From assembly GCF_003148665.1 (NCBI RefSeq), contig NZ_QGGQ01000001.1, forward strand, positions 265,762 to 329,761: a stretch of 64,000 bases of DNA, in the 5' to 3' direction. Made by a program: the position numbers and the translations under genes. Positions 988 through 35,435 of the stretch are shown here, one piece after another; within the stretch, counting starts at the first letter, position 1, and every line of letters starts with the position of its first letter. This DNA comes from Maribacter polysiphoniae (GTDB lineage: Bacteria; Bacteroidota; Bacteroidia; Flavobacteriales; Flavobacteriaceae). Under the pieces are notes generated by a model, which saw only the letters and a program-made list of their open reading frames with translations, was not told the DNA's origin and ran no database searches.

Positions 988-3123
988 ATGTTTAAGAATA
1001 GATTTTTATTTATACTAATGCTTATTACGGCACTGACCCAAGTCAATGCCCAAGAAGACTCACCATTTGTTACCTATGATGTGCCTTCCCAAAACTTGTT
1101 GAAGTATAACCGATTCTTGATCAACCCAACGTTTTCAACGGTTCGGGAAGATGTTTCGTATATAAATCTATTACACAGAAACCAATCGGTACAATTTGAT
1201 GATAACAACCAGAATTACTTCTTAAGTTATAGTGGTAGGATCAGTGATAGGACAGGTCTAGGTTTAAGTCTCTATTCCCAACGGGAAGGTACCGTATCCA
1301 ACTTTGGTGTTTTGGCCAATTATGCCTATGGTGTCAAATTAAGTGATAAAAGTAATTTTACTTTCGGTGCCAACGTATCCTATTACAATAGTGGTTTCGA
1401 CCAAAATCGTGTGACCACGGTTGAGGAGGATCCCTTCCTTGCCGGTCTTCAAGATAGTAATCTTCTTTCATTTCAACCCGGTTTCAATATCTCTTACGGT
1501 AAGTTCGATTTCGGACTTTTTGCCGAAAACCTATTCGATTATAATTTAAAAACCAGTGAATCGGTAACTGAATTTAAAGACAAAACCTTTTCTGGACACT
1601 TACAATACACCCACGAATTTGAAAATGCCTCCGGTATTCTTGAAAGTGGACGGTTAATGCCTTTGGCACGTGCCCGTAAAGTTGGTGAAGATGATGTCGT
1701 TTTAGGAGGTAGTCTCATACTAGACCTTCCAAAAATCGGTTGGGTCCAAGGAGGTTATGACAGTTTTTATGGAGCTTCAGCAGGGGTTGGTTTCAACTTA
1801 AGTAAACGTCTTTCATTGGGTTATACCATGGAAAAAGGGCTGTCTAGTAATTTTGACAACTTTGGTGTTACCCATGAGATTTCCTTTGCATACTCCTTTA
1901 CCCCTAATTTGACCGAAGACCGTGTACTACTTGAAAAAGATAATGATCTGGTAGATGCCGATGAACCCATTCGCGAAGACGCCATGGCCAGCTCCGATGA
2001 CCTTGAGGACCTAAAAAGAAAGTTAGCGGAAAACGATGCTATCATCGAAGAACTGATGTTTAGGCAAGATTCCTTGGAGGCCAATCGTAAAGCAGACCTT
2101 CAAAAAAGGTTTGAGATGGTTATGCGCATGGTCAGAAATGAAACGAATGGTACACGACCCGACCTGGAGGAAAAAGCCAAAACAATGTTCCTTGGGGGTA
2201 AACCTCCTGTCGCCCTTGCGGATAACAACACCAGTAATGATGGCAGAACCCCATCAGGCAACCAAGAATATACCAATCAGTCTACTAATGGGCCGAAAGC
2301 TAACGAAAATCCTGTTTTTGAAACAACTACACCTTCTGATAGGGTGAAGGATGCCGTGGCCACGACCAAATCCACTTATACCACAAAACCTGAAACCGCA
2401 AGGGATAGGGTGCAACATGATTCTCCCACTCATAACGAAGTACAACATACGATTAAAAGTCGCAAGTTTCGTGATTTGGAAGGCGTTGAAGATGGTTATT
2501 ACGTTGTCGCCAATGTTTACAAAGGCGGTGTCTACATGAACAGATTCATTGAAAACCTTGAACAAAAAGGCCTATCGGCAGATTATATTGATAACCCCAA
2601 TAACGGACTTAAGTATGTGTATTTAGAACGTTACGATACGTGGCAAGAAGCTGTAGCAGCCCATAATAGCAATATTGATGGTAAATATGATGGGGCAACA
2701 TGGATCATGAATGTAGACAATCGCTACACCAATGAAGCTTATGCCGAAAATTCGAACAAAATAAAAGAGCGATCTTCCAAATACAATACCGATATACTAC
2801 AAAAGAATGTCATTGTTAAGGATAAGGTTGCCGCCAATAACCTGGAACTAAAAACCCAAATCATCCAAGGTATTGATTCTGGTTATTATTTGATTGCCAA
2901 TGTTTTCGCCAATCCGAACAATGCCAAACGATTTGTGAAACTATTGAACTCTTACGGATTGCATGCCAGTTATTTCATCAATCCAGAAAATAACTATAGG
3001 TATGTTTATTTGAAGAAACATCAGTCTTGGAACAACGCACTTATTTCGTACTATACAAAACTGAATGACTCTTATGATGACCAAATGTGGATTATGCGGG
3101 TTACCCCAAATCAAATAGCATAA
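988..3123 (+). CDS. PorP/SprF-family outer-membrane protein with two C-terminal SPOR-like modules
   Basis: A signal peptide (MFKNRFLFILMLITALTQVNAQ) is followed by a PorP/SprF-type beta-barrel domain over about residues 30-310, including the 'NPTFSTVRED' region typical of the family. PorP/SprF proteins associate with T9SS cargo adhesins. After the barrel come a charged coiled-coil-like stretch (about 325-385), a low-complexity Asn/Thr/Pro-rich linker (about 395-490), and two related ~75-residue modules starting near residues 499 (DGYYVVANVY) and 628 (SGYYLIANVF). Both modules end in a W-I-M-x-V strand and have a SPOR-like beta-alpha-beta-beta-alpha-beta pattern. At 711 residues it is more than twice the length of the plain SprF at 20763. 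Inference: the tail binds peptidoglycan and anchors the barrel. It is co-transcribed with the upstream adhesin (9-base gap). Confidence 0.85.
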   Translation: MFKNRFLFILMLITALTQVNAQEDSPFVTYDVPSQNLLKYNRFLINPTFSTVREDVSYINLLHRNQSVQFDDNNQNYFLSYSGRISDRTGLGLSLYSQREGTVSNFGVLANYAYGVKLSDKSNFTFGANVSYYNSGFDQNRVTTVEEDPFLAGLQDSNLLSFQPGFNISYGKFDFGLFAENLFDYNLKTSESVTEFKDKTFSGHLQYTHEFENASGILESGRLMPLARARKVGEDDVVLGGSLILDLPKIGWVQGGYDSFYGASAGVGFNLSKRLSLGYTMEKGLSSNFDNFGVTHEISFAYSFTPNLTEDRVLLEKDNDLVDADEPIREDAMASSDDLEDLKRKLAENDAIIEELMFRQDSLEANRKADLQKRFEMVMRMVRNETNGTRPDLEEKAKTMFLGGKPPVALADNNTSNDGRTPSGNQEYTNQSTNGPKANENPVFETTTPSDRVKDAVATTKSTYTTKPETARDRVQHDSPTHNEVQHTIKSRKFRDLEGVEDGYYVVANVYKGGVYMNRFIENLEQKGLSADYIDNPNNGLKYVYLERYDTWQEAVAAHNSNIDGKYDGATWIMNVDNRYTNEAYAENSNKIKERSSKYNTDILQKNVIVKDKVAANNLELKTQIIQGIDSGYYLIANVFANPNNAKRFVKLLNSYGLHASYFINPENNYRYVYLKKHQSWNNALISYYTKLNDSYDDQMWIMRVTPNQIA

Positions 3124-3171
3124 ACCAATCGTTCTTATTAACTAAATATCCTATTATACTCATCGCACACT

Positions 3172-3194
3172 AGGTGTTGGTTTTTTCAAAACCC
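3172..3194 (+). terminator. Weak hairpin after the barrel-SPOR gene
   Basis: An AGGTG arm with a following GGTTTT pairs imperfectly with AAAACC-CACCT about 50 bases past the stop codon. There is no clean T-tract after it. It may help termination together with the stronger hairpin downstream. Confidence 0.3.
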
Positions 3195-3247
3195 ACCTTT
3201 CATAAACCTTTTTTAAGGGGTATGTTACCATTTTAAATTTTGATATT

Positions 3248-3278
3248 AATCATCCTTTTTGCTAAGGATGATTTTTTT
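3248..3278 (+). terminator. Rho-independent terminator
   Basis: A perfect 10-base stem, AATCATCCTT / AAGGATGATT, with the 6-base loop TTTGCT, runs into a T-tract of seven. It ends the adhesin/barrel-SPOR unit and separates it from the sprB unit. Confidence 0.85.
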
Positions 3279-3575
3279 ATGGCGGTATTTCACCATGGAT
3301 TATCCTCTTTCCCATTCATGGCAATCCCATTCCAAAGCTTTTCCTACAACAATCCATTTACTCCAAAATAGGTTGTAATCCAGAGGGACAAACCGCACGT
3401 ATACAACGTTTCACAACATAAAATCAACGTACTACAACATTAAATTTCCTCCCTGATTTTAATAGGTAATATTTGTTAATGGTAGTTCTTGGAATGTCAC
3501 ATTCCGAGACTGTCTAAAAACAATCAAAACAGAGATTGAATCAAACAAACTGTTAAAACCAAACTTACTGACCCA
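3279..3575 (+). promoter_or_regulatory. sprB leader and promoter region
   Basis: About 300 noncoding bases precede sprB. A near-consensus -7 element (TAATATTTG) lies around 3467-3475, which would give a ~95-base 5' UTR; no clear -33 TTG is seen. Three ACAACRT motifs lie at 3403, 3413 and 3434. Within the putative leader, 3488-3508 forms a hairpin: GGAATG-TCA-CATTCC extended to a 9-pair stem with one G-T wobble. No ORF here looks real. Confidence 0.45.
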
Positions 3576-6500
3576 ATGAAAATTAAGTCGACCAAAATAC
3601 TTTTATTAACCTGTTTTCTCTTTTTAGGTGTTCTTTCATCCTTCTCCCAAGTAAAAAACGACTTTGATGTACGTTATGAGGCAGATATTCGTGGTGAAAT
3701 CACATTTGTTGGCAATAACATTGTCAACCGTCAAATTGATCCCCATTGGGAAGGTGCATACGAAAGATGGGGATGGTGGTGGATATGGAATCCACGCGCC
3801 AATTGGGTCTCAGACGTAGTAAGTCCGAACACGCCTTACGACTTAACCGGTAATTCATCGGAGTCGAACGATGTTCTCAATATGCAATATATTGATATTG
3901 ACAGTGATCCCGATACATTCAGTTCCAGTAGTGCTACCTTGGATATTCCTGATGTAGATTGCTCCTTGGTCCGGTACGCAGGGCTTTATTGGTCCGCAGT
4001 TTATGTCAATTCAGATCGAAGTAATATTGATAATATAAAATTCCAAGTACCAGGGGGTACCTATCAAGATATCACCGCCGATGAAATTCTTTTTGATGGT
4101 GATGGTGATCCTGATTTCGGTTATTATAGTCCGTATGCCTGTTATAAGGATGTAACCTCCATTGTTTCCGGGCTTTCCAATCCCAATGGGGAATATTTTG
4201 TGGCAGACGTACTTGCCAGCTCTGGAAGTAGTATTTCCGGGGGTGTTTCCGGGGGTTGGAACTTAGTGATCGTCTATGAAAACCCGAACCTTCCTGGTAG
4301 TAAATTCATAACCACTTTTGATGGGTATGCCGGTATTGCCTCGGCGGCTCCGGATGTAGATATTCCCATAAGTGGATTTACCACCCTTCCCGCTCCTTTC
4401 AATGTAAATGCCAATATTGGTATTGCTGCCCTTGAAGGTGATAATCGAATTCGCGGTGATGGACTTGAAATCAACGCAAATGGTTCTTTTAGCGCTCTTT
4501 ACAGCACACAGAATCCAGCTAACAACTTCTTCAATTCGAACATTACCATTGATCCGGATATTATAACCACCCGAAATCCGAACAGTGTAAATACCCTCGG
4601 GTGGGACGTTGATTTGTTCCCGGTGACCAACCGACCTAACAACAATGTTATACCAAATGATGCCACAAGTGCCACGTTACGGCTTAGCTCTACCCAAGAT
4701 AAATACGACGTGTTCTTCACGTCGTTCGATGTAGAGATTATAGAACCTAAAATCGTATTGGAAAAAAGGGTGAAAACCCCTGGTGGCATTGACATTACCG
4801 GGCAAGGTGTACATCTTGGCCAAATCCTCGACTATGAACTTACCTTCCAGAATATCGGAAATGATGATGTCGACGGTTATATCATCAGGGATGTACTCCC
4901 CGTAAACGTTGCTCCACCTAATGGCATTGATTTCACAGATTCAGATTTCGTACTGCCTTCAGGAGTAACCTATTCTTACAACAGTGCTTCCCATACCATA
5001 GAATTTTCCATTCCTAATGCCTTGGTATTACAGGGGCTAACACCGTATTCCATTCGAATGCGCGTTAAGGTAGCCGAAAACTGCTTTGATTTTGTTGACG
5101 CCTGTTCCGATTTAATCCAAAACTTGGCATACTCAACCTATCACGGTGTTCAGAACGCGGCCCAAGTTACCGATGACCCCAGTGTCACGGATTTCGATGC
5201 ATGTGGATTCGTTGTCCCTGGGGCAACAAACTTTTTATTGGATGACCTTTCTGACTGTAACTTCTCCCGTACCGTAGAACTCTGTGGTACCGAAGCTATA
5301 TTGGATGCCGGTGATAATTTTGATGGTTACGTATGGGTAAGGGACGATAACGGCAATAACCTGTTTGATTCGACTGATACCGTAATTACCGATGGTGATC
5401 CCGATAACGACCCGAGTACCATGTCGGTAACCGAGGTTGGAACGTATATTGTAGATAAAATAGCCACCGATCCATGTAAGGGTTTTAAAGAAATCATTAC
5501 CGTGGTACCTTATGGTTCAGGTATCATACCCAACCCTGTCATAGAATATTTCAATTCCGTAAACAGTGATACCGATCCTTCCAATGACCTGGCCGGGGAA
5601 ATAGTACAATGTAGTGTTGACAATGACCTTCTTCCCAAATTATTCCTTTGTGGGATAGGGGATACACGCCAAATTCAAGTAAACATACTCGATGCCCAGA
5701 GCATTGTATGGGAAAAATTGGATGAGGGCAGTTGTGACGCCGCCGGGGATGATTGTGCAAACAAAAACCTCACCTGTACTTGGAGTCCTGAAGGAACAGG
5801 GAATAATTATCTCGTATCGAGTGAAGGTAAATACAGATTATCGGTCACCTATCAGAATGGATGTACCAGTCGTTTTTACTTCAATGTATTCCAAAATACA
5901 TTGGACATAGAATATGACCATAACGATATCATCTGTACTACACCAGGTAATATAACCATCACCAATTTAGGCACCGGTTACGGTTACCAATTGGTTGATG
6001 ATGCAACTGGCAATATCATAACCCCTTTTAGTGCCAACAATGGACCTAGTTTCGATTTTGGAACTGGCGAAAACGGAGCTTATAGGGTACAGGTTACACA
6101 ATTGGACAATGCCGGAAACCCTATTGACGATGCATGTATTTTTGAAACACCGGTTATTGGGATTGTTGAAAGGGATGTACAATATGAAGTTGAGGTAACC
6201 CCTGCAAACTGTACGGTTTTAGGTACTGCCACCATTCGAGTGACCAATGCCGATGCCAATTATGAATATGAAATTCGATTGGATGACGGTACTAATGGGG
6301 GACAAGGTACATTGGTTGATAGTGAATCTGCCCAGACCAATAACAACTTTACGTTTACAGGTCTTAATCCAGGCAATTATATTGCCGTAGTACGCACGGA
6401 TGACGGGTGTAACTATAGTGAGCAAATAACGATTATCGATGAAAATGATCTGGACTTGGATGCCCGGGTGCTACAAGCCATTACTTGTGATCCAGGAACC

Positions 6501-9500
6501 ATACTCATGGAATCAACAGGGGGACAAGCTCCGCATGTCTACGCCATATGGGAATATGTAAACGAAAGCGGAACAACAATAACCTCATATGCAACCATCA
6601 ATGATATTCCGTCAACCGAATTCCAAACCAATACCACTTTCGAAGTACTCGCTCCAGGTGATTATACGTTTGTTGTAGTTGACGACAATAACTGCCCGGT
6701 TTTTTCAAATATGGTTTCGATTGAATTTCGGCCAGCTGCTGAATATGACCCAGTTACCATCACCGATGTCCAATGTTTCGGTGACACAACAGGTGAAATT
6801 CAATTCAATCTGACCAATGACCATGGTTACGCTATAACCTATTTCTTGAGTGATGATACCGATACCCCAATAAGCTCCAACAATTCCGGCTATTTTACGG
6901 GATTGGCTGCCGGTAATTATTCGGTTCGTATCAATCAAACTTTTGGTACCGCCTCATGTGATTATACCGAGGATATTACCATTGGTGCACCAACAGCTGC
7001 ATTGAGTGCTATTAGCACTATAGTTCAAGATTATACTTGTGTACAAGATGCCATTATCGAAGCCCAGAGCGTAACAGGGGGAACCACACCTTATTCCTAC
7101 AGTATTGACGGTGTTACATTTATTCCTGATACGACTCCAAACGCCCATAGATTTGGGAATTTGACCGATGGTACCTATACCATCACGGTTAGGGATGCCA
7201 ATGGATGTACGTTCGCAACCCCTGCCATTACGATAGTACCATTAAATGAGCCTAGCGACCTAACATTTACCGCTACGGCCCCGAATTGTCCTACCCAGAC
7301 TTCCGATGTTACCGTCACCGTTGTAGACGGGAATACACCTTATGTTTTTGATATTATTGCTCCTTCATCCATAGCTGCTACTTCCACATCCGGAACGACT
7401 GCTGGTTTTGACGGACTTGCACCCGGTACGTATACCTTTAGGGTCACCGACAATAAAGGATGTACATACACAGAAGATTTTACCATTACCCCCGTATCGC
7501 CAATTACCGTTGCAGGTACCTTGGTCAATAATGTGACCTGTGTGGGGGCTTCAGATGGGGCTGTTGACTTTACCGTAAATGGTTTTTCAAGCAGCTACGC
7601 TTACAGCATTGACGGTGCCACTTCAATAACTGCACAAACCGCAAACACTATTAACCTTACGGGCCTTTCTGCAGGCGATTATACCATTATCGTCACCGAT
7701 GAGATTACGAATTGTACCGACACACAAACTATAACGGTAAACGAACCAACCAACCCATTGGATTTTACATTTAATGTAACCCCACTAGGTTGTACGGCAG
7801 ATGGTTCAGTAACCATTACAGCAACCGATGGTTGGGGCGGCTATTCCTATGAAATTACACAACCCGATGCCGTTGTTCTTGGTCTACAATCCAGTAATGT
7901 ATTTTCTGGACTCAATCAAACCGGAATCCATACCATTCAAGTAACCGACGCCGGAGGATGCGTTGTAACGGATACTTTTACCATTGACGTACCAACTAAC
8001 CCAACGATATCACTTGACGCCACTACAGACCTTTGTTTTGATCCAGGGAGTGGTGTTAGCCTAACTGCAACAACAACAAACGGAGTTGCACCCTATTCTT
8101 ATAGTTTGAACGGAGGGCCAACGCAAACCGGAAATGTATTCAACAACTTAACACCAGGTAGTTATACCGTTGTTGTAACTGATGCCTATGGCTGTAGCGC
8201 CACTTCGAATACCGTTACGATTGAACCACAATTATCGGTTTCCCCTGTTCTTACCAAAGAATTGGATTGCGCGACCTCACCGGATGCAGTCATAGATATT
8301 ACCATAAATGGCGGTTATTCAGCTTTCACCTATCAAGTAAATGGTGGTACCAGTATCCCAGTTACCGGTAATACTTTTACCTATACAACTGCAGTGGATG
8401 GTTCCTTTACTTTCTTGATTACCGACGATGAAGGTTGTACGGCCGAAACAACGGTTGTTGTGGATCCCATTACAAATCCTACGGCAACAACAAATCCAAC
8501 GAATCCGACCTGTAATGGACTAGCGGATGGTAGTGTCGAAGTGGTTATTGATCCCAATTTTGGAACAGCACCTTACCAAGTTGATTTTAATGGTGGTGGA
8601 CTTTCATCGCAAACGCTTTACACCGGACTGGCTGCAGGTACCTACAATTACATTGTACAAGATAGCAAGGGATGTACCTTCAATGGAAGTGTCACCTTAA
8701 CAGCTCCTGACTCCATAACTGCGGATGCAGTATTGACACAACCCTATACCTGCTTGCAAACAGGGACTATTCAAGCCCAAAACGTTTCCGGTGGAACCCC
8801 TGGTTACATGTACAGCATCGATGGTATTAATTTTGTGCCTACGGATACCTTTACCGGACTTACCGATGGTACCTATACCATTACCGTAAGGGATGCCAAC
8901 TTATGTACTTTTGTGACGAATGAGGTGATTATATTACCTCTTGATCCTCCAACGGATATATCCTTTGTTGCCACACCTCCAAATTGCCCTACGGAAACTT
9001 CCGATGTTACCCTTACAGTAACAGGGGGTACAGGAGCAATTGGTTATGAAATTACAGCTCCCGCGGCTTCAACCACAAATATTTCAGGTGCAACTACTGG
9101 TGTTTTTGCCGGACTTGCTCCAGATACCTACACCTTCTTGGTCACTGATGCCAACGGTTGTACCTATACCGAAAATTATACAATCGACCCAGTTACCCCA
9201 ATTGATGTTGTAGGGGTATTGGTCAACAATGTTTCCTGTATGGGAGCAGCTGACGGTGCGATAGACTTTACCATAAGTGGCTTTACCACATCGTACCAAT
9301 ACACTATTAATGGGGGTACACCGGTAACAGGTCAAACAATTGCAACAATCAATCAAACCGGCCTGATCGCAGGTGTTTACACGATTATAGTTACAGACGA
9401 AACAACGAATTGTACCAGTACCACCACAATCACAGTAAGTGATCCACCATCAGCATTGGTCATCGACAGTATTGTACCTACAGACCCAACATGTTTGGAT

Positions 9501-12500
9501 TCTGGTTCGGTTACTGTTAATGTTTCGGGAGGATGGGGCAATTATTCTTATGAATTCATTGACCCAAGTTCGGTACACACAACGAATTCCACAGGAATCC
9601 TTAATGGACTCACCGATACCTCCGCGGCCTATACGGTCAATGTTACCGATGCCAATGGATGTACGATTACCGATAGTTTTACATTAAATCCAGCTGTTGC
9701 TCCGGTGTTAAGCGTTAGTGCGAACAGTCTTTGTTATGATAGTACTACAGGACTCATATTGACCGCTAATGTCACTTCAGGTGGAACGGCTCCATTTCAA
9801 TATAGATTGAATGGCGGAGCGTACCAAAGTGAAGCTGATTTTACTGGTTTGGCACCTGGAAGCCATACCGTTGAAGTAATAGATAGTAAAAACTGTTCTG
9901 CATCAGCCACTATCGATGTATTCCCAACCTTGGCAGCTTCTGCTAACTTGGTCAAAGATCTTGATTGTAGCGCAACACCGGATGCTGAAATAAGTATTTC
10001 AGTAAGTGGTGGAAACCCAACCTTCAATTATGAAGTACTACGGGATGGTAGCTCTGTACAAGCCAGTACAGCTGTTCCTTCCAATCCGTTCTCATATACC
10101 ACCACAACGGCCGGTACCTATGAATTTATAATCACGGATACGGAAAGTTGTACCGTGACCACAAATCAAGTGGTGATAACAGCCAATAATCCGCCTACCG
10201 TTGTTGAGGTAGTTGCCAACCCATTATGTACTACAAGTGCGGATGGTAGTGTAACCTTAAATATTACCGGAGGTACAGCACCTTATCAGGTCGTATTCGA
10301 TGGTAGTGCCCCTTCAACACAAACCACCTATGCCGGTTTGGCTGCAGGCACCTACAATTATACGGTTACCGATGCCAAAGGCTGTGTAACCAATAATAGC
10401 GTAGATTTGATTGCTCCTCCTGTCCTCGTGCCAGGAACCATTGACGTTGTTCAGGATTATACATGTATCAATACCTCAGCAACCTTACAAGTTATAAATT
10501 ACTCTGGTGGAACTCCAGGATACACCTATAGTTTGGATGGTGTCAACTTCCAAGTATCGGATACTTTCAATACAGGAATTACAGCAGGCACTTATACCAT
10601 TACCGTAAAAGATGCCAATGGATGTATAGCAACTACCCCAGCCGTTGTAATAGATCCGCTGGACCCACCAACAGATCTGACATTTGTTGCCACGGCACCA
10701 ACCTGTCCTGCCATAAATTCGGATGTAACAATTACCGTTATTGACGGCAATGCACCATTTAATTATGAAATCACGGCTCCTGCCGCTGCAACTACCAATG
10801 TAACAGGGGCAACAACAGGCGTGTTTACCGGTTTGGTTCCTGGAACATATACCTTCAAGGTGACCGATGCCAAAGGATGTGAATTGGAAGAAAGCTATAC
10901 CGTGGTCGATATACCCCAAGTAACGGCTATTTCCCAATTAACCAATAACGTAAGTTGTTTTGGTGCGGCTGATGGTGCGTTTACCTTTACGGTCAGTGAT
11001 TTTGCAACTACCTATAGTTATACGGTTGAAAACAGTGCATCTACTGTCATACAATCAGATAATAATATCAATTTTACCACTCCAATTGCAGTAGCTGGCC
11101 ATCCAGCCGATACGTATACGGTAACCATTACGGATGATACGACCAACTGTTCCACAACGACCAGCATGGTTATCGAAAATCCGCCAGCTGCGTTGGATTT
11201 CACCTTTACCAATTCACCTGTTACCTGTATCCAAAATGGAAGTATTACCGTTATTGCCACAGATGGATGGGGTAGTTATGAATATCAATTGGAAAATACG
11301 GTTGGTCCTGCCATAGTGTATGCCTACCAAGGTTCAAATACATTTAACAATGTTCCCGCGGGTACCTACAATATTTATGTACGTGATGCAGGTGGATGTA
11401 TCATTGACAAACCCATTACCTTAGACCCTGCTGAAACCCCGACAATTGCGTTGGAACCAGCAACGGATTATTGCTATGATGGTACTGACCAAGCGTCATT
11501 GGTAGTAAGTATTACCGATGGAGTCGCTCCTTACACCTATACCATCAACGGTGGGGCACAAACGGCTGTCGTTGGTAATCCATTTACCATAGCGAACCTT
11601 ACTCCAGGCACATATGATATTCAAGTTACAGATGCCTATGGTTGTGTGTCGAATGCGCTTAACGGTATCCTTATCGAGCCTCAATTGGCTGCTACTTCTA
11701 CCTTAACCAAAGGACTGGATTGTACCGTTTCACCAGATGCAGAGATTGATGTTACTATCACCAATGGATATTTACCCTATGCTTCCTATGAAGTAAGTAC
11801 AAATAGTGGGGTATCTTGGTCGGCGCCTGTTGCCATTGTAGGTAATAGTTTTACATATTCTGCAAGTGTCGATGGAACATATGACTTTAGAATTACAGAT
11901 AATAACGGATGTACCGTAATAACACAAACGGTAGTAAGCCCTATTGTATATCCCGTAATTACATCTCTGGTACAGACCGTGGATATTCTATGTAATGGGG
12001 ATTCCGGAGCTACGATTAATGTTAATTTGGATAACACCCAAGGAACGGCACCTTTTACTATTTCAGTACTCAACACCACTACAGGAACCAACTATGGAGC
12101 ACAAACAGCTGGATTACCATCAGGTACATATGAAGTAACCGTAACCGATGCCAAATCTTGTACGGATATGAAAACCATAATCATATTGGAGCCAGATCCA
12201 ATAAATTATGATATTAATCTTGTGCCAATTACCTGTAACACGGCACTGGGAACAGACCCAGGTTCCATTACCGTGGAAAACTTAACAGGAGGTACTGCGG
12301 AATATACGTACTACTTAACTGGGAATAACGGATACTCGGCAAACTATGTAACTACCGCAGGTGGTGAAGACCATACATTCGCTATTCTAGAATTCGGTAT
12401 ATACGAGGTAGATGTGGTAGATTCAAATGGATGTTCTTTGGTAACAACGAATATTATCGCATCTCCACCGGATGATCTGGATATTGATGTCTCAGCGTTA

Positions 12501-15500
12501 ACCGCTGATTGCGCAACAGGAGGTACGGCAATAGTTACCGTTAGTACAGCAATTTTAGGAACTGATTATACATTCGGGATATTAGATAGTTTTAGTGCCC
12601 CATATGCCTCAACTTTTTATCCACCAGATACACCTGGCGGACCAACAAGAACCTTTACAAATTTAACCCCGGGTATAACCTATACCTTTGTAGTTCATGA
12701 CAATACAACACATTGTGATTATTTTGAAAGTGCTACGGCCCCTATAGATTCGCCTTCCGGACTTACTTCTAATTTAGATGTTGTTTCCAATATAACATGT
12801 ACAGGAAGTGCAAACGGAAACGTAAGTTTTACTTTCGATAATTATGACGCTGGAGCTACCTCTGTAAATTATGAGATATTCAATGCACAATCGAATATCA
12901 CTACCGGTATTTCCGGATCTGCCAATGTAAATCCACCTGCAGTTGGTACAGGCGTTTCAATCTTGAACTTAGGCCCATTACCAAGAGGGGTCTATTATAT
13001 TCTTTTTTCTGAAGTAGGTGGAGCATACAATGGTTGTACGGTAACTTCTGATCAATTCACGATTACCGAATCTACGAATTTACTTGAAGTAGATGCAACA
13101 GCCGATAAAAATGACAATTGTAATGTGAATGCCGGTCAAATTTCGGCTGTAGGCCAATATGGTACGGCACCTTATGAATATCAACTTACTCTATCAACAG
13201 ATCCTGCCCCAATCGTTTCAACTTGGGCCGGAAATAGCACAAATACCTTCAATGTTGAAAGTGGTGATTACATTGTGTATATAAAAGATGCCAATAATTG
13301 TATTCAATCGGATGCTGTTACGGTAATTACCGATCCATCACCAGAGATAAGCGTAGCTTCCACTAACCAATGTACGGCCACTGAAGGTTCCTTTGAGGTG
13401 GATATTAGATTAGATGTGGTAGGAATGTCTCCATATACCATCAGTGTAGATGGTGCTGCGCCCCAAGCAAGTAGTTTAAGTTCGGTTGGGGATACCATGA
13501 CGATATCCAATTTGAGTTCTGGTTACCATACCTTCACCATATCCGATATCAATGGTTGTGGAGAAACTAAGGATATCACTATTTATCCTCCTTTGGATCT
13601 AAGTGCGAACATCACGGCTGCCGACAACTGTGACCCTGCCGATTCCGGTGAGGTTACGATTACCGCAAATGGAGGTTCAGGAAACTATAGTTACACCCAA
13701 ATTACCCCTGCTGGACCTACCCAGGTTTCAGGCGTATTTACCGGACTAACACATTCCATCGCTTATATGTTTGAAGTGGAGGATACCACTACCCATTGTA
13801 CTACCCCAGTAACTATAACGTTACCAGCTCCTGTAAATCCAACATTTACTTTGGCCGCTACCGAGGTAAGTTGTTTTGGAGGAACCAATGGTACCATAAC
13901 CGTAACATTGGATGCCGGAAACATCGATGTTCCTTATGAATATAGTTTGGATGGAGGTACAACGACACAGCCTTCCAATGTCTTTACCGGACTTTCACAA
14001 GGGACCTACAATGTAACCGTAATCTCAGCCAAAGGTTGTGAAGATGTTAAATCAATTGATGTAGATGAACCTACCCAATTGGATATTTCCGCTTCGGCTT
14101 CAGCCTTTAGTTGTAATGATACGACCAGTACGATTACCGTAACAATCAATGATGCCACTCCTGGAAATCCATCGGGAACAGGACCTTATGTCTATAGCTT
14201 TGATAATGGTCTTAATTTCCAAGCAGGAAATACCTACCAGGTACCTTTTGGATCGCCCGATGTCAATGTTGTCGTAAGGGATGCCAATGGTTGTTTGGAT
14301 ACTGAAGTAGTCGTTATTCCGGCCATGCAGGAAGTTATGGCTTCAATCAACCAAACACAGGTTATTGATTGTTCCAATGGAGCGGAAATAATAGAACTTG
14401 TACCATTAAATGGTTCAGGTACCTATACGTATGCGGAACTTCCAAGTGGTAACCCAGTGGCAGATCCCACAAATATTGTATTGACTGCTCCAGGAACCTA
14501 TGTTTACGAAATCACGGATACCGTAACAAACTGTTCGGTCATCGTTGAACATAACATTGCTCCCTATAACCTAATCGATGTTACAGCTACCATGGTATCG
14601 GATGCTACTTGTAGTGATAGTGTTGATGGGGAAATAAGTGTTACCCTAACAGGTTACACAGGAACGTTCAACTATCAAGTATTGGATAATACCGGTGCTC
14701 CTGTAGTTGGTGCTTCCGGTACGGATACTGCCGTTGCAGACCCATATACTTTTACAGCATCCTCAACGCTAGACGCAGGTACCTATACCGTACACATTAC
14801 CGAAACCGCTTATCCTGAATGTGTTGCCACTTCGAATAGTGTAACCATCGATGCCCCAGAGCCATTAGTGTTGAACTTACTTGGTATTATAAATGCCAAT
14901 TGTAACGAAACCAACGCTATTGTCACTATGCAAGCAACAGGTGGTACAGCTCCATATTCGTATGGTGCGGCCATTAGTGGAGCCGGTGACCCTGGTGTTT
15001 ATCCTTTTGACAACACCGTGGAATTGGACCCTACTACAAGTTTAAATTGGGATATATATGTACAGGATGCCAATGGTTGTGTCATTGCAATCCCATATGC
15101 CGTAACCGTGGCTACCGATACCACTCCCGATATTTCATTGGCCTTGGATGATGCCTGTGCAGATGAAGGGGATTTCGGTATCACCGTTTCACTGGATGCC
15201 ATAAATATAGGGGTAGCCCCATATACCATGAGTATTAATGGAAGTGCTTTCCAAAGCATTGCCAGTTTCCCTTATACGTATACGGGTCTCACCGCAGGTG
15301 CGTATTCCATAGAGATCAGGGATGCCAATAATTGTGGTGAAACTGAACCCATTACCATTGATGCTGAATTGACAGCAAGTGCTTTCGTAGTTTCCCAACC
15401 AACATGTACAACTAACGATGGTGTAATTGAATTTACCGTAAATGGTGGTTCAGGTTCTTTTACTGCTGAATTGTTACAATCGGATTTAACTCCGACAGGT

Positions 15501-18500
15501 ATAACCGCAGCAGGTAACCAATTTACGGGAGTTGCTTTTGGTGACTATATCGTACGGGTTACCGATGATACATTAGGAACCCCTAACTGTAGTGTTGATG
15601 TTCCAATTTCTTTGGAAGAACCAACCCCAGTTACCCTGAACACCACCCAGAAAACAGATATTACTTGTTTTGGTGCTGCCAATGGAACGATTACGGTTAG
15701 TTTGGTTACTCCTTCAACAGGGGTAAATGATAATCCACCGTATTCCTATACCGTAGATAATGGTTCAGATCCCGCTATCACAAATGGTACGGGTAGTTTC
15801 TCTGGATTGAACCCAGGTAACTATACCATTACCGTTACTTCGGAAAGAGGTTGTATTGCCACGGATAACATTACAATCAATGAGCCTACAGCATTGGTGG
15901 TTACCGCAAGTGCCACGGATTTTGCCTGTGCCCTTGACAATACCGTAAATGTTTCCGTTCTAACAATAGATGTACCTAGTACAGGAACGACCCCTTATAC
16001 GTATAGCATTGATGGAGCCAATTTCTTTACAACAAATACCTTCAATGTAATTGATACGGGAGCAACACAAACGATTACGGCAACCGTAAGGGATGCCAAT
16101 GGCTGTTCCAATTTTGATACGGTTACCATAAACCCATTACCAACCATAACCGATGTAACCGTTAGCCAACAAACGGCTATAACTTGTGCCAATGATGAAG
16201 TTGCACGTGTAACTGTTACCGATGGTTCAGGTGATTTCACTTTTGAATTGTTACCAACTGGAAGCGCTCCAGTGCAAACGCCAGGAGCAGGAAACTATTC
16301 TGCCGACTTTACGTTGACAACCCCAGGGGATTATACCTTCAGGGTAACCGATAATGTGACCGGTTGTTATTTCACCACTGCTCCCTACACTATTGCTCCT
16401 TACGACCTTATTGAGGTTGTCGCAACTCCTGTTTCTCCAGTGACTTGCTTCGGGGACAATGATGGGGTTATGGAAATCAATGTTACGGAGTATAACGGAA
16501 ACTATTTGTATGAGGTCTTCAACAGTGATGGAACATCAACTTCCATTACCAATACGGGTGTAGCTCCAGGTATCTTAAGCATAACCGGATTGTCCGCAGG
16601 AAACTTCTATGTAGTTTTTACTGCAACGGATACCCCGTTCTGTCCGGCTACATCGAACACGATTACCATAGGATCACCGGATGCTGCTGTTCATCTTGTT
16701 GAGCTAAGCAATATCAATGCGAATTGTACTATTGGGGCCCAAGTAAGTGTACAGGCGACAGGAGGAACTCCAGGGTATACCTATGCATTTGTCCCAACGA
16801 CTACCTCACCAACAGGATTGTACACCTCAAATGCAAGTGCCATTCTAACGCCAGCCACATATCCTGCAGCTTATGACGTATATGTACAGGATTCCAGAGG
16901 TTGTACCGATATGATCACCATAAACGTAGATGAAGATCCTATGCCTACGGTAACGGCACCTACTTATGCAACTGACCAATGTACCTCCAACGGAACATCC
17001 TATACATTTACCGTAACTGGTAGTGCTGGTATTGCGCCACTTGAATACAGTATTGGAAACGGATATCAGTCCAGCGATACTTTCACTGTAACCGCACCAG
17101 GAACTTATACCGTTACCGTACGGGATGCCAACGGATGTACAGCAACCGATACCATAGAGATTTTACCGCCACTTGGTTTAACACCTGCTGCAACCGTACA
17201 ACCTAGTTGTGCCCTTAATGATGGTGTAATAACAATTACGGCAACTGGCGGGTCCCTAAATTATGAATATGACCTTTTGGATAATGGTGGTACAAGTGTA
17301 ACCGGTGGAGTTAGACAGGCATCCAATGTCTTTAACGGACTTGCGCCTGGTACTTATACTGCTTTAGTTTATGATACCAGTGCTTCGGGTTGTGATGCCC
17401 AAGCCCCAATTACCCTTGAAACACCAACACCAGTAGTATTTACATGGAACAAAGAAGATGTCTCCTGTAATGGAGGTGCTGATGGGTCTATCGAGGTAAA
17501 CCTTGCTCCTTCCAATGATAATCCACCGTATACCTATACTTTGGATGATGGAACGAACCCACCAACGGTACAGACCAGTAATTTATTCACCGGTTTACCC
17601 ATGGGAACCTATGATATTACGGTAAGTTCCGGCAAAGCATGTTCAGATACACAACAGGTGATAATTGTTGAGCCTGATCCCGTTGATGTAACCGCAACCG
17701 CAACTGATTTTGCCTGTAATCCTAATAATACGGCATCGAGTTCAGTTATAACTGCAACCGGTATTGATGGTACAGCACCTTATACCTTCAGTATTGATGG
17801 TACGAATTTCTTTACCTCGAATACATTTACCATATTGGATACTGGTTCTACGCAGACCATTACGGTAACCATAAAGGATGATAATGGTTGTACGGATACG
17901 GCATTAGTGACCATTGAACCATTGAACACGTTTACTGCTACGGTTAGCACAATTACCAATATTTCTTGTGCAGGACCTGAACAAGTGTTGATAACCGTGA
18001 ATGACAATGGTGATGTGGCCAATACCTATACCTATGAATTGTTGCCAATAGGAAACCCTAACGGCACTGAAGTGGCAACAGCATTGAATACAACAACACA
18101 GTTTGATCTGACTGCCGTAGGTAGTTATACGTTCCGTATTACGGATACAACAACCGGATGTTATGTTGATACACTGCCTTATGAAATAGCGCCCTATGAT
18201 TTGATCGAGGTAACCGCAGTGGCTATAGATCCAGTTATTTGTTTTGGTGATGGCAATGGTTCGATAGAATTAACTATTGATGGTTATGTAGGTGCTTACG
18301 ATTATCAAGTGTTTGATAGTAACGATAACCCTATTGGACCTTCGGTAAGTACTGATACAAGTGTAAACCCAAGAATGATTACCGGACTTTCTGGTGGTAA
18401 CTATTATATACGGGTTACTGAAACCGCTGCTCCTTTATGTTCTGATGAAACCAATACAGTTACCATCTCATCACCCGATATGGCGTTGACCGAGACAACA

Positions 18501-20744
18501 ACTGTTTTGAGTGGGGTAGAATGTACCGATGATCAAGGGGAAGTAAGGGTAAACCCAACAGGTGGAATAGCTCCTTATGATATTACCTTGACCAATACCA
18601 CAACAGGGGATTCCTCCGGTACTTTGAATGATGTAACCGGTGCAGTATTCTCAGGCTTGTCTGCTGGTGACTATAGCGTTACCATAGTGGATGCAGGAGG
18701 TTGTTCCATAACAAATGCTTATCCCATTTTATTGGATATGCCAACACCTGTGACAGCAAATGCCATTCCGTTGAACACGGCACTAACCTGCTTTGGCGAT
18801 ACCACGGGAAGTGTTTCCGCTGTGAATGTATTGAACGGAAGTGGAAACTATGAATACCAATTGAACTATTACGATGCTTCAGGTACAACCATTGAATTTA
18901 CAAGTACTCTTCAAAGTGGTCCTGACTTCAATAATTTAGGAGCAGGTATCTATAGTATTACTGTTTCCGATGGATGGAACTGTGATGTGGAAACCAATCA
19001 GGTTACCATCACAGAACCTACACTTATTGAAGCAACATTGATCCGTACCGATCCATTGACCTGTGCTACAGGTGTGGAATTCGAATTGAGTGCCACAGGC
19101 GGAAGCGGTGTTTATGAGTACAGCTTGGATAATATTACTTTTAGTCCGATGACCAGCAATCCAATGCCTTTACCAGAAAGTGGTATGCTTGGCTCAGGAT
19201 CACACCAGTACTATGTACGTGATCTAGGAGGTGCTTGTGAATCGGTACGTTCCAATGCCATAACTGAAACAGCGATTGTACCCCTTGCGTTGACCGTAGA
19301 CACGTCAGCCGCTGTGATCAATTGTAATGGTGAGGCTACGGCGATCATCTATGCCAGTGCAGCAGGTGGTTTAGGTAACTATCAATATGAATTGTATACC
19401 GATGCATCCTTGAGCATTGCAACACGCGTAGCCGGTCCTCAAGGATCTGGTAAGTTCACTGGACTTCCCGCAGGTACCTATTACGTGAATGTAACCAGTG
19501 AGGATTGTACCACTCCGGCAGAGGAGGTTGTTATCATACAACCAGAACCTTTGACCTATACCGAAAATGTTGTGGACGTCACCTGTTTTAGTGACACCAA
19601 CGGTAGTATAACCGTTACCCTTTCAGGTGGTGCAGGTGGATATCAATATGCAATTTCCCCTAACCTTAACCAATTCGATACAGAAAATACCTTTACCGAT
19701 TTGGCACCTGGGGATTATACGGTTATCGCCCAAGATATGAACGGATGTTTCGAAATATTGGAATATACCATTGGTCAACCGGATATGTTACAGATTTCCG
19801 CAACCACCACCCCTGAGATTTGTGTGGGTGAAGCCAACGGTACAATTACCGTATCAATAACAGGAGGTACCGCTCCATACAGCACAAGTCTAAATGATAA
19901 ATCGAACTTTGTTCAAGATCAATTGGATTTTACAGATGTCGCTGCTGGTAGTTACCTATTGTTCGTAAGGGATGCCAATGGTTGTGAGGATAACATCATT
20001 GTTGAGGTTGGCGCAGGTGAAAACCTTAATGCCACTGTTGAACCTGTATATGAATGTACCGGTGATACCCCGAACAATTATATTGTGGTAACATTGGAAG
20101 ATCCTTCTATTACCAGTGATGTATTGTATGCAATGGATTCAACAGATCCAGCTGATATGCAATTGACCCCTGACTATAGCAATTTGGCACCAGGTACACA
20201 TGCATTGACCATTGCCCATAGTAATGGATGTGTAAATACCGTCGATTTTGAAATCCTAGGATTTGAACCATTGACCTTGGAATTGCAGAACAACAATATC
20301 AATGAAATTACTGCAGTTGCCACAGGGGGAAGAGGGGAATACAACTTCTACTTCGGAGATGTTGATAATGGTTCTGATAACACCTATATGATCAATAGGA
20401 CTGATACTTATGTTGTTAGGGTTGTTGATGAGAACGGTTGTGAGGTCATTGCTAACATTGCAATGGAATTCATAGATATCGAAATTCCTAACTTCTTTAC
20501 ACCTGATGGAAATGGTGAAAATGACATATGGTTGCCCAGAAATATTGAGTCATACCCAAAAATACTAATTAAAATTTATGATCGTTATGGTAGAGTAGTT
20601 GAAGATAATGTAGTCAGTAAAAACGGATGGGACGGCCTATACCATGGTGCAGAACTACCAACCGGTGATTATTGGTACATCATTAAACTACAAGGTGAAT
20701 CTGATGATCGTGAATTTGTTGGACATTTTACCCTATATCGCTAA
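3576..20744 (+). CDS. sprB: Giant SprB-like gliding/adhesion surface protein (5722 aa)
   Basis: A signal peptide ends near SSFSQ (residue ~25). Residues ~30-390 form a unique head with a Trp-rich start. A DUF11-type module follows at ~395-510 ([11 protein letters not shown] ... [10 protein letters not shown] ... RDVLPVNV). The body consists of dozens of ~80-residue SprB-type repeats, each with a conserved Cys near its start (patterns such as NVSCxGxxDGxIxF) and an APYxYSIDG ... GTYTITVxDANGC core. The last ~85 residues are a CHU_C C-terminal domain ([18 protein letters not shown] ... GHFTLYR), the T9SS export and attachment signal. In Flavobacterium johnsoniae, SprB is the mobile surface adhesin propelled along the cell during gliding. 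The SprF-type partner follows after 18 bases. Two exact-order super-repeat arrays are described separately. Whether this is the orthologue of SprB or a paralogue cannot be settled here. Confidence 0.9.
7038..12176 (+). repeat. Super-repeat array 1 in sprB: three 1713-bp copies of seven modules
   Basis: The Cys codon of the module reading YTC(V/L/I) falls at 7038, 8751 and 10464 (residues 1155, 1726, 2297). The spacing is exactly 1713 bases (571 codons) twice. Each copy has the same order of seven Cys-led modules: YTC, APNCP/APTCP, NNVSC, a WGxYxYE-containing module, DLC/SLC/DYC, LDC, and NPTCNG/ILCNGD. DNA identity between copies is clearly below 100%, so the duplication is old, yet copy length has been kept. 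Confidence 0.8.
12798..18239 (+). repeat. Super-repeat array 2 in sprB: three ~1.8-kb copies of seven modules plus a partial fourth
   Basis: The first module's Cys codon falls at 12798, 14610, 16446 and 18240 (residues 3075, 3679, 4291, 4889), giving spacings of 1812, 1836 and 1794 bases. The order within each copy is NITC/DATC/PVTC, NCN/NAN C, a DQC/DAC module, a NC/PTC/PSC module, a TCFG/SCNG module, xFxC, and an xIxC module ending APYDLIEV. A fourth copy starts at 18240 and loses register after its second module. Module identities differ from array 1. Confidence 0.75.
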
Positions 20745-20762: not shown

Positions 20763-21707
20763 ATGCGTACTAAAATAGTAACAGTTCTTCTTTTTGCAAG
20801 CGTCTTTATGATGAAGGCCCAAGAACTTACCATTCCCCAACTATCGCAATACTTAGCTGATAACCCCTTTGTAATGTCACCCACATATGCGGGTATCGGG
20901 GATCATGTTAAGATTCGTGTAAACGGACTTACCCAATGGGTAGGTATAGAAGATGCCCCAGACACCCAATCCTTAGCTGCCGATATGCGTATTGGGGAAA
21001 GATCCGGGATAGGAGCCTTATTGTACAACGATAGTAATGGTGAAACCAAACAACGAGGGGCTAGATTGTCCTTTGCCCACCATTTGACCCTAGATAGATA
21101 CGATGATGAGTTTCTATCGTTTGGACTGTCGTACAACTTCAACCAATTTCGAATAGATATTGAAAATTTTGATGCTTTGGATCCCAGTGTTACAGATGAC
21201 CGGGCCACTACAAACCATAACTTCGACGTTGGGGTAATGTACCGATACGACAAGTTTTATTTTAGTTTGAATGCCTCAAATATATTAAACAAGGATCTGA
21301 CCAAATTCAATCCAGTATTTGAACCCAACACCCTTCGTAATTATTATGCCTACACAGGATATCGATACACCAAGAACAAGAACAGTCGATTGGAAATTGA
21401 ACCCTCGGTCTTCTTTCAACTTTTTGAGAGCGATGGTCGTTCGGTAACCGATTTGAACGTGAAATTCAGATGGTATGATTTTGAGGACTACTACTACGCA
21501 GGGGTAACCTATCGATTTTTGAACGATCAAATAGGTGATCCATTATATATTGCACCTATTGTAGGACTCAAAAAGAACAATTTTTATTTTGGATACTCCT
21601 ATCAGATCATCTTAAATGAAATACTTGGGTATAGTTCCGGAACGCACGTGATTACCTTAGGTGTGGATCTATTCCAGGGCATCAGTAATTGTAGATGTAC
21701 CTATTAG
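20763..21707 (+). CDS. sprF: PorP/SprF-family type IX secretion outer-membrane protein
   Basis: This 314-residue protein has a signal peptide (ends MMKAQ), then the family start 'LPQLSQYLADNPFVMSPTYAG' type pattern with an N-P-x3-SP-x-YAG core and a Trp-containing strand (GLTQWVGIED). The rest alternates aromatic beta-strands consistent with an outer-membrane barrel. It sits 18 bases after the giant adhesin, the classical sprB-sprF order. In F. johnsoniae, SprF is needed for SprB to reach the surface. The length is normal for the family. It is co-transcribed with sprB; no separate promoter is visible in the gap. Confidence 0.9.
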   Translation: MRTKIVTVLLFASVFMMKAQELTIPQLSQYLADNPFVMSPTYAGIGDHVKIRVNGLTQWVGIEDAPDTQSLAADMRIGERSGIGALLYNDSNGETKQRGARLSFAHHLTLDRYDDEFLSFGLSYNFNQFRIDIENFDALDPSVTDDRATTNHNFDVGVMYRYDKFYFSLNASNILNKDLTKFNPVFEPNTLRNYYAYTGYRYTKNKNSRLEIEPSVFFQLFESDGRSVTDLNVKFRWYDFEDYYYAGVTYRFLNDQIGDPLYIAPIVGLKKNNFYFGYSYQIILNEILGYSSGTHVITLGVDLFQGISNCRCTY

Positions 21708-22208: not shown

Positions 22209-22220
22209 CACCTCGAAAAT

Positions 22221-22291
22221 GGCATCGTGGCCGAGTGGCTAGGCGCAGCTCTGCAAAAGCTTGTACAGCGGTTCGAATCCGCTCGATGCCT
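22221..22291 (+). tRNA. tRNA-Cys (anticodon GCA)
   Basis: The acceptor arms GGCATCG / CGATGCC pair perfectly. The anticodon loop CTGCAAA (22251-22257) carries GCA at 22253-22255, with the normal T before the anticodon. The T-arm GCGG-TTCGAAT-CCGC is perfect. The CCA end is not encoded. A short CATAAG-ACTC-CTTATG hairpin follows at 22292-22307. Confidence 0.92.
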
Positions 22292-22363
22292 CATAAGACT
22301 CCTTATGTTTCAAAGAGTCATTTTGAAACAGATGGATTAGGGTACTAAGTTTACACCTCAAAG

Positions 22364-22434
22364 GGCATTGTGGCTGAGTGGCTAGGCTAGGCCCCGCAAA
22401 GGCTTATACAGTGGTTCGATTCCATTCGATGCCT
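22364..22434 (+). pseudogene. Degenerate tandem copy of tRNA-Cys
   Basis: This 71-base copy lies 143 bases after the intact tRNA-Cys and can still fold: GGCATTG / CGATGCC has one T-G wobble. The GCA anticodon is kept, but the base before it is C (22395) instead of the near-invariant T/U33. The T-arm and D-arm have gained wobble pairs. Its upstream -7 element is TAAGTTTA, with the final G of the consensus lost. It could be a weakly used or dead gene. A scanner may still call it tRNA-Cys. Confidence 0.65.
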
Positions 22435-22470
22435 CAAAAAAAACCTCCTTGTTTAAGGAGGTTTTTTTTT
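22434..22470. terminator. Bidirectional Rho-independent terminator
   Basis: CCTCCTT-GTTT-AAGGAGG (22444-22461) is a perfect 7-base stem flanked by an A-run on the left and nine T on the right. It can stop both the rightward tRNA transcripts and the leftward rnr/DUF2807/LysE run, whose last stop codon overlaps the T-tract. Confidence 0.88.
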
Positions 22471-34817: not shown

Positions 34818-35432
34818 TCAAACGAAACGTTTGGCAATACCGTTTTCAATCAAGAAATCAAGCTTTAATATCAGGTTAAAAGGCTTTTCCGCCTTGTTTT
34901 GGGTCGATGCATAAAGGTAGCCTTCCGAGTGGGAATCCAGTTCGCTTATTTTGATCTTACCATGTTTACCATGGGCTTTTTCCCAATAAATTTCCAAGCG
35001 GCTTTGGGAGAGTTTTCGGGTCGTTAATAAGTCGAGAAGTTTGGGACGGTTCACAAAGGTGATCTTACAAGAGGTAAAGGTTTGGGGCTCGTCAGCATAG
35101 ATGGCCGTAACCAAGGCATAGAAATCTGTTTTCTTAGAGGGATCGTACAACCACCCTGGTTTTGTTTTTCCGTTTTTTTGATAATTGATTTCAAAGGCGA
35201 AAGTGGGTAAATCGTCGTTTACATAATCCAATTGGGCCTTCTCATCAACAAAAAATGTCTTTTGGGTGTTTTTTTGAATCATGATCAGGTCAACACCCCT
35301 GTGTTGAAGGTTTAAATCGGATACCCGTTTAAAACCGTAATTTTTCAAGTGGTTGTGATACATCGAATCCAAAAGGATTGCAAGTTGTTTCTCTTTCTGC
35401 AAATCACTTTGAAAATGACTTTTATCACCCAC
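34818..35432 (-). CDS. Putative type II restriction endonuclease (PD-(D/E)XK-like), unassigned family
   Basis: The 204-residue product lies 3 bases after a C5-cytosine methyltransferase gene in the same direction, the usual place for the partner endonuclease. Its N-terminal half contains GVDLIMI (Asp48), then 14 residues later the strand FFVDEKAQ (D63-E64-K65), which fits the D ... (D/E)-x-K nuclease core. A second acidic strand, AFEINYQ, follows. I cannot match it to a named restriction enzyme. The assignment is from context plus the motif, not from family recognition. Confidence 0.6.
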   Translation of the reverse strand: MGDKSHFQSDLQKEKQLAILLDSMYHNHLKNYGFKRVSDLNLQHRGVDLIMIQKNTQKTFFVDEKAQLDYVNDDLPTFAFEINYQKNGKTKPGWLYDPSKKTDFYALVTAIYADEPQTFTSCKITFVNRPKLLDLLTTRKLSQSRLEIYWEKAHGKHGKIKISELDSHSEGYLYASTQNKAEKPFNLILKLDFLIENGIAKRFV

Positions 35433-35435
35433 GAT

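Follow-up and report, generated by a model that had tools for sequence, protein, structure and literature searches.

What keeps the modules of a giant surface protein in one order while their sequences drift apart? The question arises from a 64,000-nt stretch of the Maribacter polysiphoniae genome (contig NZ_QGGQ01000001.1, positions 265,762 to 329,761; called the window below, with coordinates counted from its first base), in which an open reading frame (ORF) of 5722 amino acids (3576-20744, + strand) encodes an adhesin. Judged from its gene order, its sorting domain and the tail of the adjacent SprF, it is a Maribacter version of SprB, the gliding adhesin. A first-pass annotation of the same DNA had noted in it an exact super-repeat of seven modules, and had offered selection on spacing or recombination that keeps register as its cause. 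We confirmed the seven-slot super-repeat, although it extends further and is less exact than first noted, with six full units followed by slots A-C. The best explanation, to which as a whole we give a probability of about 0.83, is that a Maribacter SprB would be exported by the type IX secretion system (T9SS) and retained on the surface by SprF, and that homologous recombination in register would keep its seven-module phase while leaving the residue length free.

The adhesin contains 56 modules of ~83 residues each, with one Cys pair per module, which start at residue 787 after the N-terminal part and are followed by a final module with a single Cys and then by a T9SS type B sorting domain. 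The super-repeat takes up 45 of these modules in register (modules 4-48; residues ~1140-4967, 6993-18476 on the + strand, as are all parts of the ORF). Before it, the parse by Cys pairs gives the N-terminal modules n0-n3 (5889-6992), which are recognised by profile in many relatives. Units 1 to 6, each with slots A-G, occupy 6993-8705, 8706-10418, 10419-12188, 12189-14066, 14067-15881 and 15882-17669, and their lengths are 571, 571, 590, 626, 605 and 596 residues, respectively. The modules of the partial unit 7 (slots A-C, 17670-18476) have their best matches in the same slots. The slot-A Cys residues are 1155, 1726, 2297, 2887, 3513, 4118 and 4714. Modules c49-c55 (18477-20261) stand outside the seven-module period, and the last module before the sorting domain (20262-20477) has the second Cys (residue 5622) and lacks the first. 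The sorting domain itself lies at 20478-20741 (TIGR04131, 88 bits; cut-off, 35).

The spacing of 1713 bases (571 residues), which the first-pass annotation had seen twice, holds at one Cys anchor (1155/1726/2297) but not at the other 13 Cys, whose offsets run from 566 to 572 between the first and second copies and from 573 to 592 between the second and third. Instead of three copies of 571 residues there are six units and slots A-C, and the end that had been set at 12176 cuts the third copy, of 590 residues, short. The same order of seven modules in each copy was borne out, with seven modules per stretch and one Cys pair in each, as was the divergence between copies. In the pairwise comparison of modules that had been proposed as a check, those in the same slot were more alike than those in different slots: 47.6% amino-acid identity (21 pairs) versus 32.1% (189 pairs) in modules 4-24, and 38.9% (30 pairs) versus 30.2% (246 pairs) in modules 25-48. 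None of 20000 label permutations reached the observed score difference, whether in modules 4-24, 25-48 or 4-48. The best match fell in the module's own slot for all 21 of modules 4-24 and for 44 of the 45 of modules 4-48, and in a scan of periods 2-15 only 7 and 14 stood out. Neighbouring modules (lag 1) share ~32% of their amino acids. The likeness sits at the protein level and not at the DNA level: a DNA repeat search found no direct repeat of at least 60 nt inside the adhesin ORF, and Tandem Repeats Finder, which reaches a period of 500 only, listed none there.

As far as slot profiles can tell, the ABCDEFG order is a trait of this adhesin and its close paralogues across many Flavobacteriaceae genera. 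The profiles were trained on four Maribacter genes (W, L049, L050, L051) with the slot positions assumed, and the order within these four genes is by construction; the loci of relatives were found through likeness to the same units. Among 2727 pairs of adjacent labelled modules in 109 ORFs from outside Maribacter, 2045 (75%) advance by one slot, against a shuffled mean of 14.7% and a maximum of 17.2%; once repeated genes are taken out, 1988 of 2652 pairs do so, in 106 ORFs. Five other families of the order served as a control: 10 ORFs with SprB-like modules, drawn from 7 of their genomes, gave 22 such steps in 206 pairs (10.7%), and an eleventh ORF of the control set, from the same family as the adhesin, yielded no pair. 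Since the five other families show no order, the slot order is not made by the profiles. One locus of another family (L193, genome G076) has 21 successive modules that are all closest to the slot-G profile with near-equal scores, a period of one unlike the seven-slot type. The genome of the window itself encodes further SprB-repeat adhesins: L099 (C9) has the same seven-slot order in two units, and L100 (C2) and L101 (C1:616000-624500) were also found, the order being less clear in L100.

The number of modules was counted between the landmarks n3 and c49, with an insert in slot B counted within that slot. Among 140 ORFs, 40 without a recognised landmark were dropped (29 cut by the locus end and 11 not), and the first count of the other 100 gave 76 with 17, 31, 38 or 45 modules, 13 with 11 and 11 that were irregular. 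When the irregular ORFs were read by hand, seven proved to have 31 or 17 modules, one had 37, one stayed uncertain and two were the same gene with a run of N. Removal of duplicates and of ORFs open at the 3' end gave 93 unique ORFs with both landmarks. There were 45 modules in 6 of them, 31 in 42 and 17 in 29, a total of 77 that includes six hand-corrected ORFs; 13 had 11 modules, one had 37 and 2 were uncertain. Two further ORFs, from Arenibacter, have 38 modules. The 93 counts are not independent, and most of the 31s and 17s were surely inherited. The number of units differs between the species compared within a genus, being 5, 6 or 8 in Arenibacter and 4 or 6 in Maribacter. Two side observations were made on these relatives. 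In 28 ORFs (L071, L094, L068, L062 and others) one slot-B module per protein carries an insert of ~150 residues, in which no Pfam family reached its cut-off in the one copy searched; the slot-B position holds for the 28 of 29 insert-bearing ORFs that could be phased by eye, the remaining one being L072, with two long gaps. In genome G059 one in-frame stop lies where ORFs of 4445 and 1418 amino acids (L068 and L069) of an orthologous adhesin meet, which may be a pseudogene, a case of recoding or a sequencing error.

The length of the units in residues is far less regular. The 217 clean units from all loci range from 562 to 643 residues, with a mean of 593.5 (sd 24.0). Two adjacent units have the same length in 9 of 141 cases, several of which are one inherited pair; genes retrieved twice are counted twice in both figures. 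Measured against a titin-like criterion of constant length, the domain number per unit is constant in clean units whereas the residue length is not. The Cys-to-Cys linker between neighbouring modules is near constant (26.2, sd 1.41). Selection on spacing, which had been suggested from the repeated 571, is thus not supported as conservation of residue length, and exact unit length as a selected trait was rejected on the spread of unit lengths. The 571/571 pair is common to M. luteus and M. aquimaris and is 571/567 in L051, so it is inherited and breakable.

How, then, is the phase kept? Recent duplications were measured as exact matches of at least 30 nt within one ORF, with repeated genes removed. 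Most lie seven modules apart: 14339 of 16942 matched bases are at a spacing of 7 modules and 905 at 14 (a count that includes some genes twice gives 17278 and 1350 of 20531). The longest repeats are of 1952 nt in M. arenosus, 1611 nt in an uncultured Maribacter, 1517 and 1470 nt in two Arenibacter and 1297 nt in G059, and they start in slots D, C, B, B and E, respectively; the two Arenibacter repeats involve the same module in B and are perhaps one event. Since a fixed recombination site would start at one slot, the varied starting slots point to homology between same slots. A tree of 85 clean units from 21 sources, made by a quick search with the Shimodaira-Hasegawa-like approximate likelihood-ratio test (SH-aLRT) only, splits into an N-type (43 rows) and a C-type (42 rows) with an SH-aLRT of 100. 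Because both types are found in species of many genera, the ancestor would have had at least one unit of each. Later expansion within lineages is also seen, and some nearest neighbours are from different genera.

A block of six modules in the window (3F-4D, 11676-13331, + strand) differs sharply from its counterpart in M. luteus. In windows of 60 nt, the two sequences are 97-100% identical over 11120-11660 and 13340-14180, and 29-60% in between. The edges of the drop lie at ~11676 and ~13340, and the module borders at ~11676 (3F) and ~13326 (4E). The block has 37-40% amino-acid identity to M. luteus, M. aquimaris, L051 and L056, whereas these four are 79-93% identical to one another. A search of 11 other Maribacter genomes, three of them <90% complete, gave no match longer than 53 nt to the window's form of the block. 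Any match to the block was found in 121 of 397 genomes, and those in other genera reach 69-73% DNA identity over nearly the whole block. No near donor was found, the closest match being of only 73% DNA identity over the whole block, from another genus. The most direct reading is that the block was imported from another lineage, six modules for six.

From these observations we infer that homologous recombination made the changes. The ancestral protein would have consisted of an N-type unit, a C-type unit and the partial unit ABC, and lineages would lengthen or shorten the gene by homologous recombination between same-slot modules one or more units apart. Because neighbours are unlike and would recombine poorly, events would add, remove or replace modules and leave the phase unchanged. 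The residue length would drift by insertions and deletions in loops, while the slot order would stay mostly fixed. The recombination that keeps register, one of the two causes named in the first-pass annotation, agrees well with the duplications mostly seven modules apart, the differences by whole units and the six-for-six swap.

Several points weigh against this reading. The exchange of modules is read from sequences, and gliding is assigned to this organism from its genes. Duplications at other spacings amount to 714 bases (176 at 6 modules, 167 at 1, 143 at 5, 130 at 8, 62 at 12 and 36 at 2), of which those at 5 and 12 come from the gene with the N run. A further 984 of the 16942 repeat bases come from Flavobacterium, where three C-terminal modules (c53-c54-c55) are amplified as a block. 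The 11-module class (~2740 amino acids, 13 of the 93 ORFs), which is without C-D-E and G-A-B, is stable, and one ORF has 37 modules; changes by other numbers than multiples of seven therefore take place and last. The middle units of four-unit relatives, Muricauda for instance, are poorly labelled. Many genomes look short-read, so that some may show a false copy number; in five congeners examined the contig breaks off within or next to the gene, and one congener has the N run. Besides, the 40 of 140 ORFs without a landmark were left out of the count. Since the assemblies are drafts, the swapped block and the seven-module duplications might be chimeras of near-identical repeats. However, a block that has no match >53 nt in 11 Maribacter genomes, and 73% DNA identity at best elsewhere, does not stem from misjoining with a known neighbour; the duplications turn up in several lineages and begin in different slots, and the seven-slot period is independent of both duplications and block. 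Assembly chimeras are therefore a very improbable source of these features. As for the super-repeat itself, the shared fold, the ~31% identity across slots and the training of the profiles on position-labelled modules might let chance, or the forcing of alike immunoglobulin-like (Ig-like) modules into seven classes, produce such an order. This is rejected by the permutations, the period scan and the labelling across genera, and in the SprB-repeat proteins of five other families these profiles find no order, so that practically no weight is left to it.

A functional period has to be weighed as well. Selection might hold an axial period in which seven modules make one filament repeat, as in titin's 11-domain super-repeat, with out-of-phase units being purged. 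The number 7k+3 in 77 of the 93 unique ORFs and the identity of slots across many Flavobacteriaceae genera would fit this idea, as would joints that are far steadier than unit length and an insert that returns to slot B in the 28 of 29 cases that could be phased by eye. On the other hand, unit length ranges over 562-643 residues with adjacent units equal in only 9 of 141 cases, 11-module proteins persist in 13 ORFs, and recombination alone suffices for the phase. To our knowledge, no partner lattice for SprB is known. We consider selection for an axial period unlikely. A period counted in domains, not in residues, could still matter, although it is breakable, as the 11- and 37-module ORFs tell. 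Recombination in register thus stays the preferred reading of how the phase is kept.

A structural model gives some idea of what the units may look like. An AlphaFold2 model of slots A-G and the next A, from 118 units in the alignment, shows repeated all-beta modules and is confident per residue, with a predicted local distance difference test (pLDDT) score of 92.8; with a predicted template modelling (pTM) score of 0.47, their relative placement is unsure. An Ig domain is about 4 nm long, so that seven would make ~28 nm per unit, a figure that comes from this general size and not from measurement. In the secondary structure, the first Cys lies between strands one and two of the module and the second Cys between the last two strands. 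Because the A-B and F-G loops of the Ig fold lie at opposite poles, a bond between the two Cys of one module is unlikely. We infer from the model that the first Cys of module i and the second Cys of module i+1 may meet at the joint, which suggests a Cys ladder of disulfides that would staple neighbouring modules together across the joints. In 92 of 99 ORFs the last module contains a single Cys, and the second Cys is present in 99 of 100 where it is aligned, which agrees with pairing across the joint. A test for disulfide partners that are lost together was uninformative: all three Cys checked are kept in 4134 of 4225 adjacent pairs, 2 pairs show loss and the rest are unaligned there.

The best solved relatives of the modules are fragments of GhpA from Aureispira sp. 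CCB-QB1 (profile E-value 1.8e-47; the first three Foldseek rows), a protein reportedly used in predation hooks. Since fibronectin fragments score alike in the fold search (Z 11.1 and 11.0, versus 11.0), the fold match is that of generic Ig and fibronectin type III (FnIII) domains, and the profile match carries more weight as evidence. GhpA and the adhesin are related in sequence and fold and have similar Cys spacing in the part of the alignment shown, but the profile matches fall in overlapping, shifted registers and no shared seven-slot order was seen. In its structures GhpA forms a seven-chain assembly (56 chains in 8 entries); no evidence met here, in an analysis not directed at the point, ties that number to the seven slots. 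A titin-like SprB filament, in which the slots would have different jobs (taking up the ~150-residue insert might be one), seven modules would form one working period of the shaft, disulfides from the A-B-loop Cys to the next F-G-loop Cys would staple the joints and the number of units would tune the reach period by period, is a tentative picture that may well prove wrong.

The identity of the adhesin is indicated by its domains and its neighbours. PF13573 (SprB) matches it in two pieces of 230.2 and 325.5 bits (cut-off, 28). Directly 3' lies SprF of the PorP/SprF family (20763-21707, + strand; TIGR03519, 212.7 bits; cut-off, 90.55), whose tail, ...SNCRCTY, carries a Cys-Xaa-Cys motif. In the available parts of a study of SprF, this motif is invariant among close SprF homologues and forms a disulfide link to GldK of the gliding track (PMC12635249). 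On the 5' side are a SprC-like ORF with a CHU_C sorting domain (1-978, + strand), cut by the left edge of the window, and a SprD-like ORF of 711 amino acids with a PorP_SprF domain (988-3123, + strand); the names SprC and SprD are given here by position and domain only. The order matches the sprC-sprD-sprB-sprF operon as described in passages of PMC5879114, and GldJ is encoded in the same genome. Because of the sprCDBF order, the type B signal, the Cys-Xaa-Cys tail of SprF and the presence of GldJ, the adhesin is read as SprB; it would move and bind as SprB does, and these marine bacteria probably use the giant surface protein for gliding. Farther along the window, between SprF and the next gene, there are two direct copies of 108 nt (22217-22467; 75% identical, 143 nt from start to start), and at 34818-36662 an ORF resembling a C5 cytosine methyltransferase stands with a small ORF, by eye only possibly a restriction-modification pair.

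SprB of Flavobacterium johnsoniae is a gliding adhesin of 6497 amino acids (PMC9870892). It is like the Maribacter protein in its SprB repeats, its type B C-terminal domain, its dedicated SprF with a Cys-Xaa-Cys tail and its gene order. The F. johnsoniae protein itself was outside our comparison, but five Flavobacterium relatives have two units and a C-terminal three-module array, in contrast to six units here. In these five (L130, L135, L149, L152 and L165), the array follows the two seven-module units with a period of three, and exact repeats spaced three modules apart are found in L130, L149, L152 and L165. In titin, domains at the same position of the super-repeat are most alike, and the array grew by recursive duplication, according to the passages of PMC10665226 that were available. 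The titin A-band is also a giant chain of Ig and FnIII domains, and here too same-slot modules are most alike. However, titin is an unrelated eukaryotic protein whose unit corresponds to the 43-nm thick-filament period and to its partners, whereas the residue length of the Maribacter unit is not constant. The rods of periscope proteins change in length by whole repeats of very high identity, for which homologous recombination has been proposed (PMC9704523, in the parts available). They resemble the adhesin as cell-surface rods that vary by whole repeats, but its repeat consists of seven unlike domains, its copies are mostly diverged and the variation in number was seen between species.

The literature passages available to us portray SprB as a single huge filament with no internal order. 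By title and the opening of the abstract, partly among the top matches listed, we found no published description of a seven-slot SprB repeat; the founding SprB papers were not covered by this search. When Bacteroidota glide, SprB is the adhesin in contact with the ground, and the seven-slot plan supplies its inner order. The plan tells where to cut for folding constructs, predicts that the commonest lengths are 7k+3 modules, and shows a gene that changes its length and swaps parts without loss of phase. Natural variants of 2, 4, 5, 6 and 8 units make the relation between filament length and gliding testable. Titin's super-repeats also gain a counterpart in bacteria, one that occurs naturally in many lengths.

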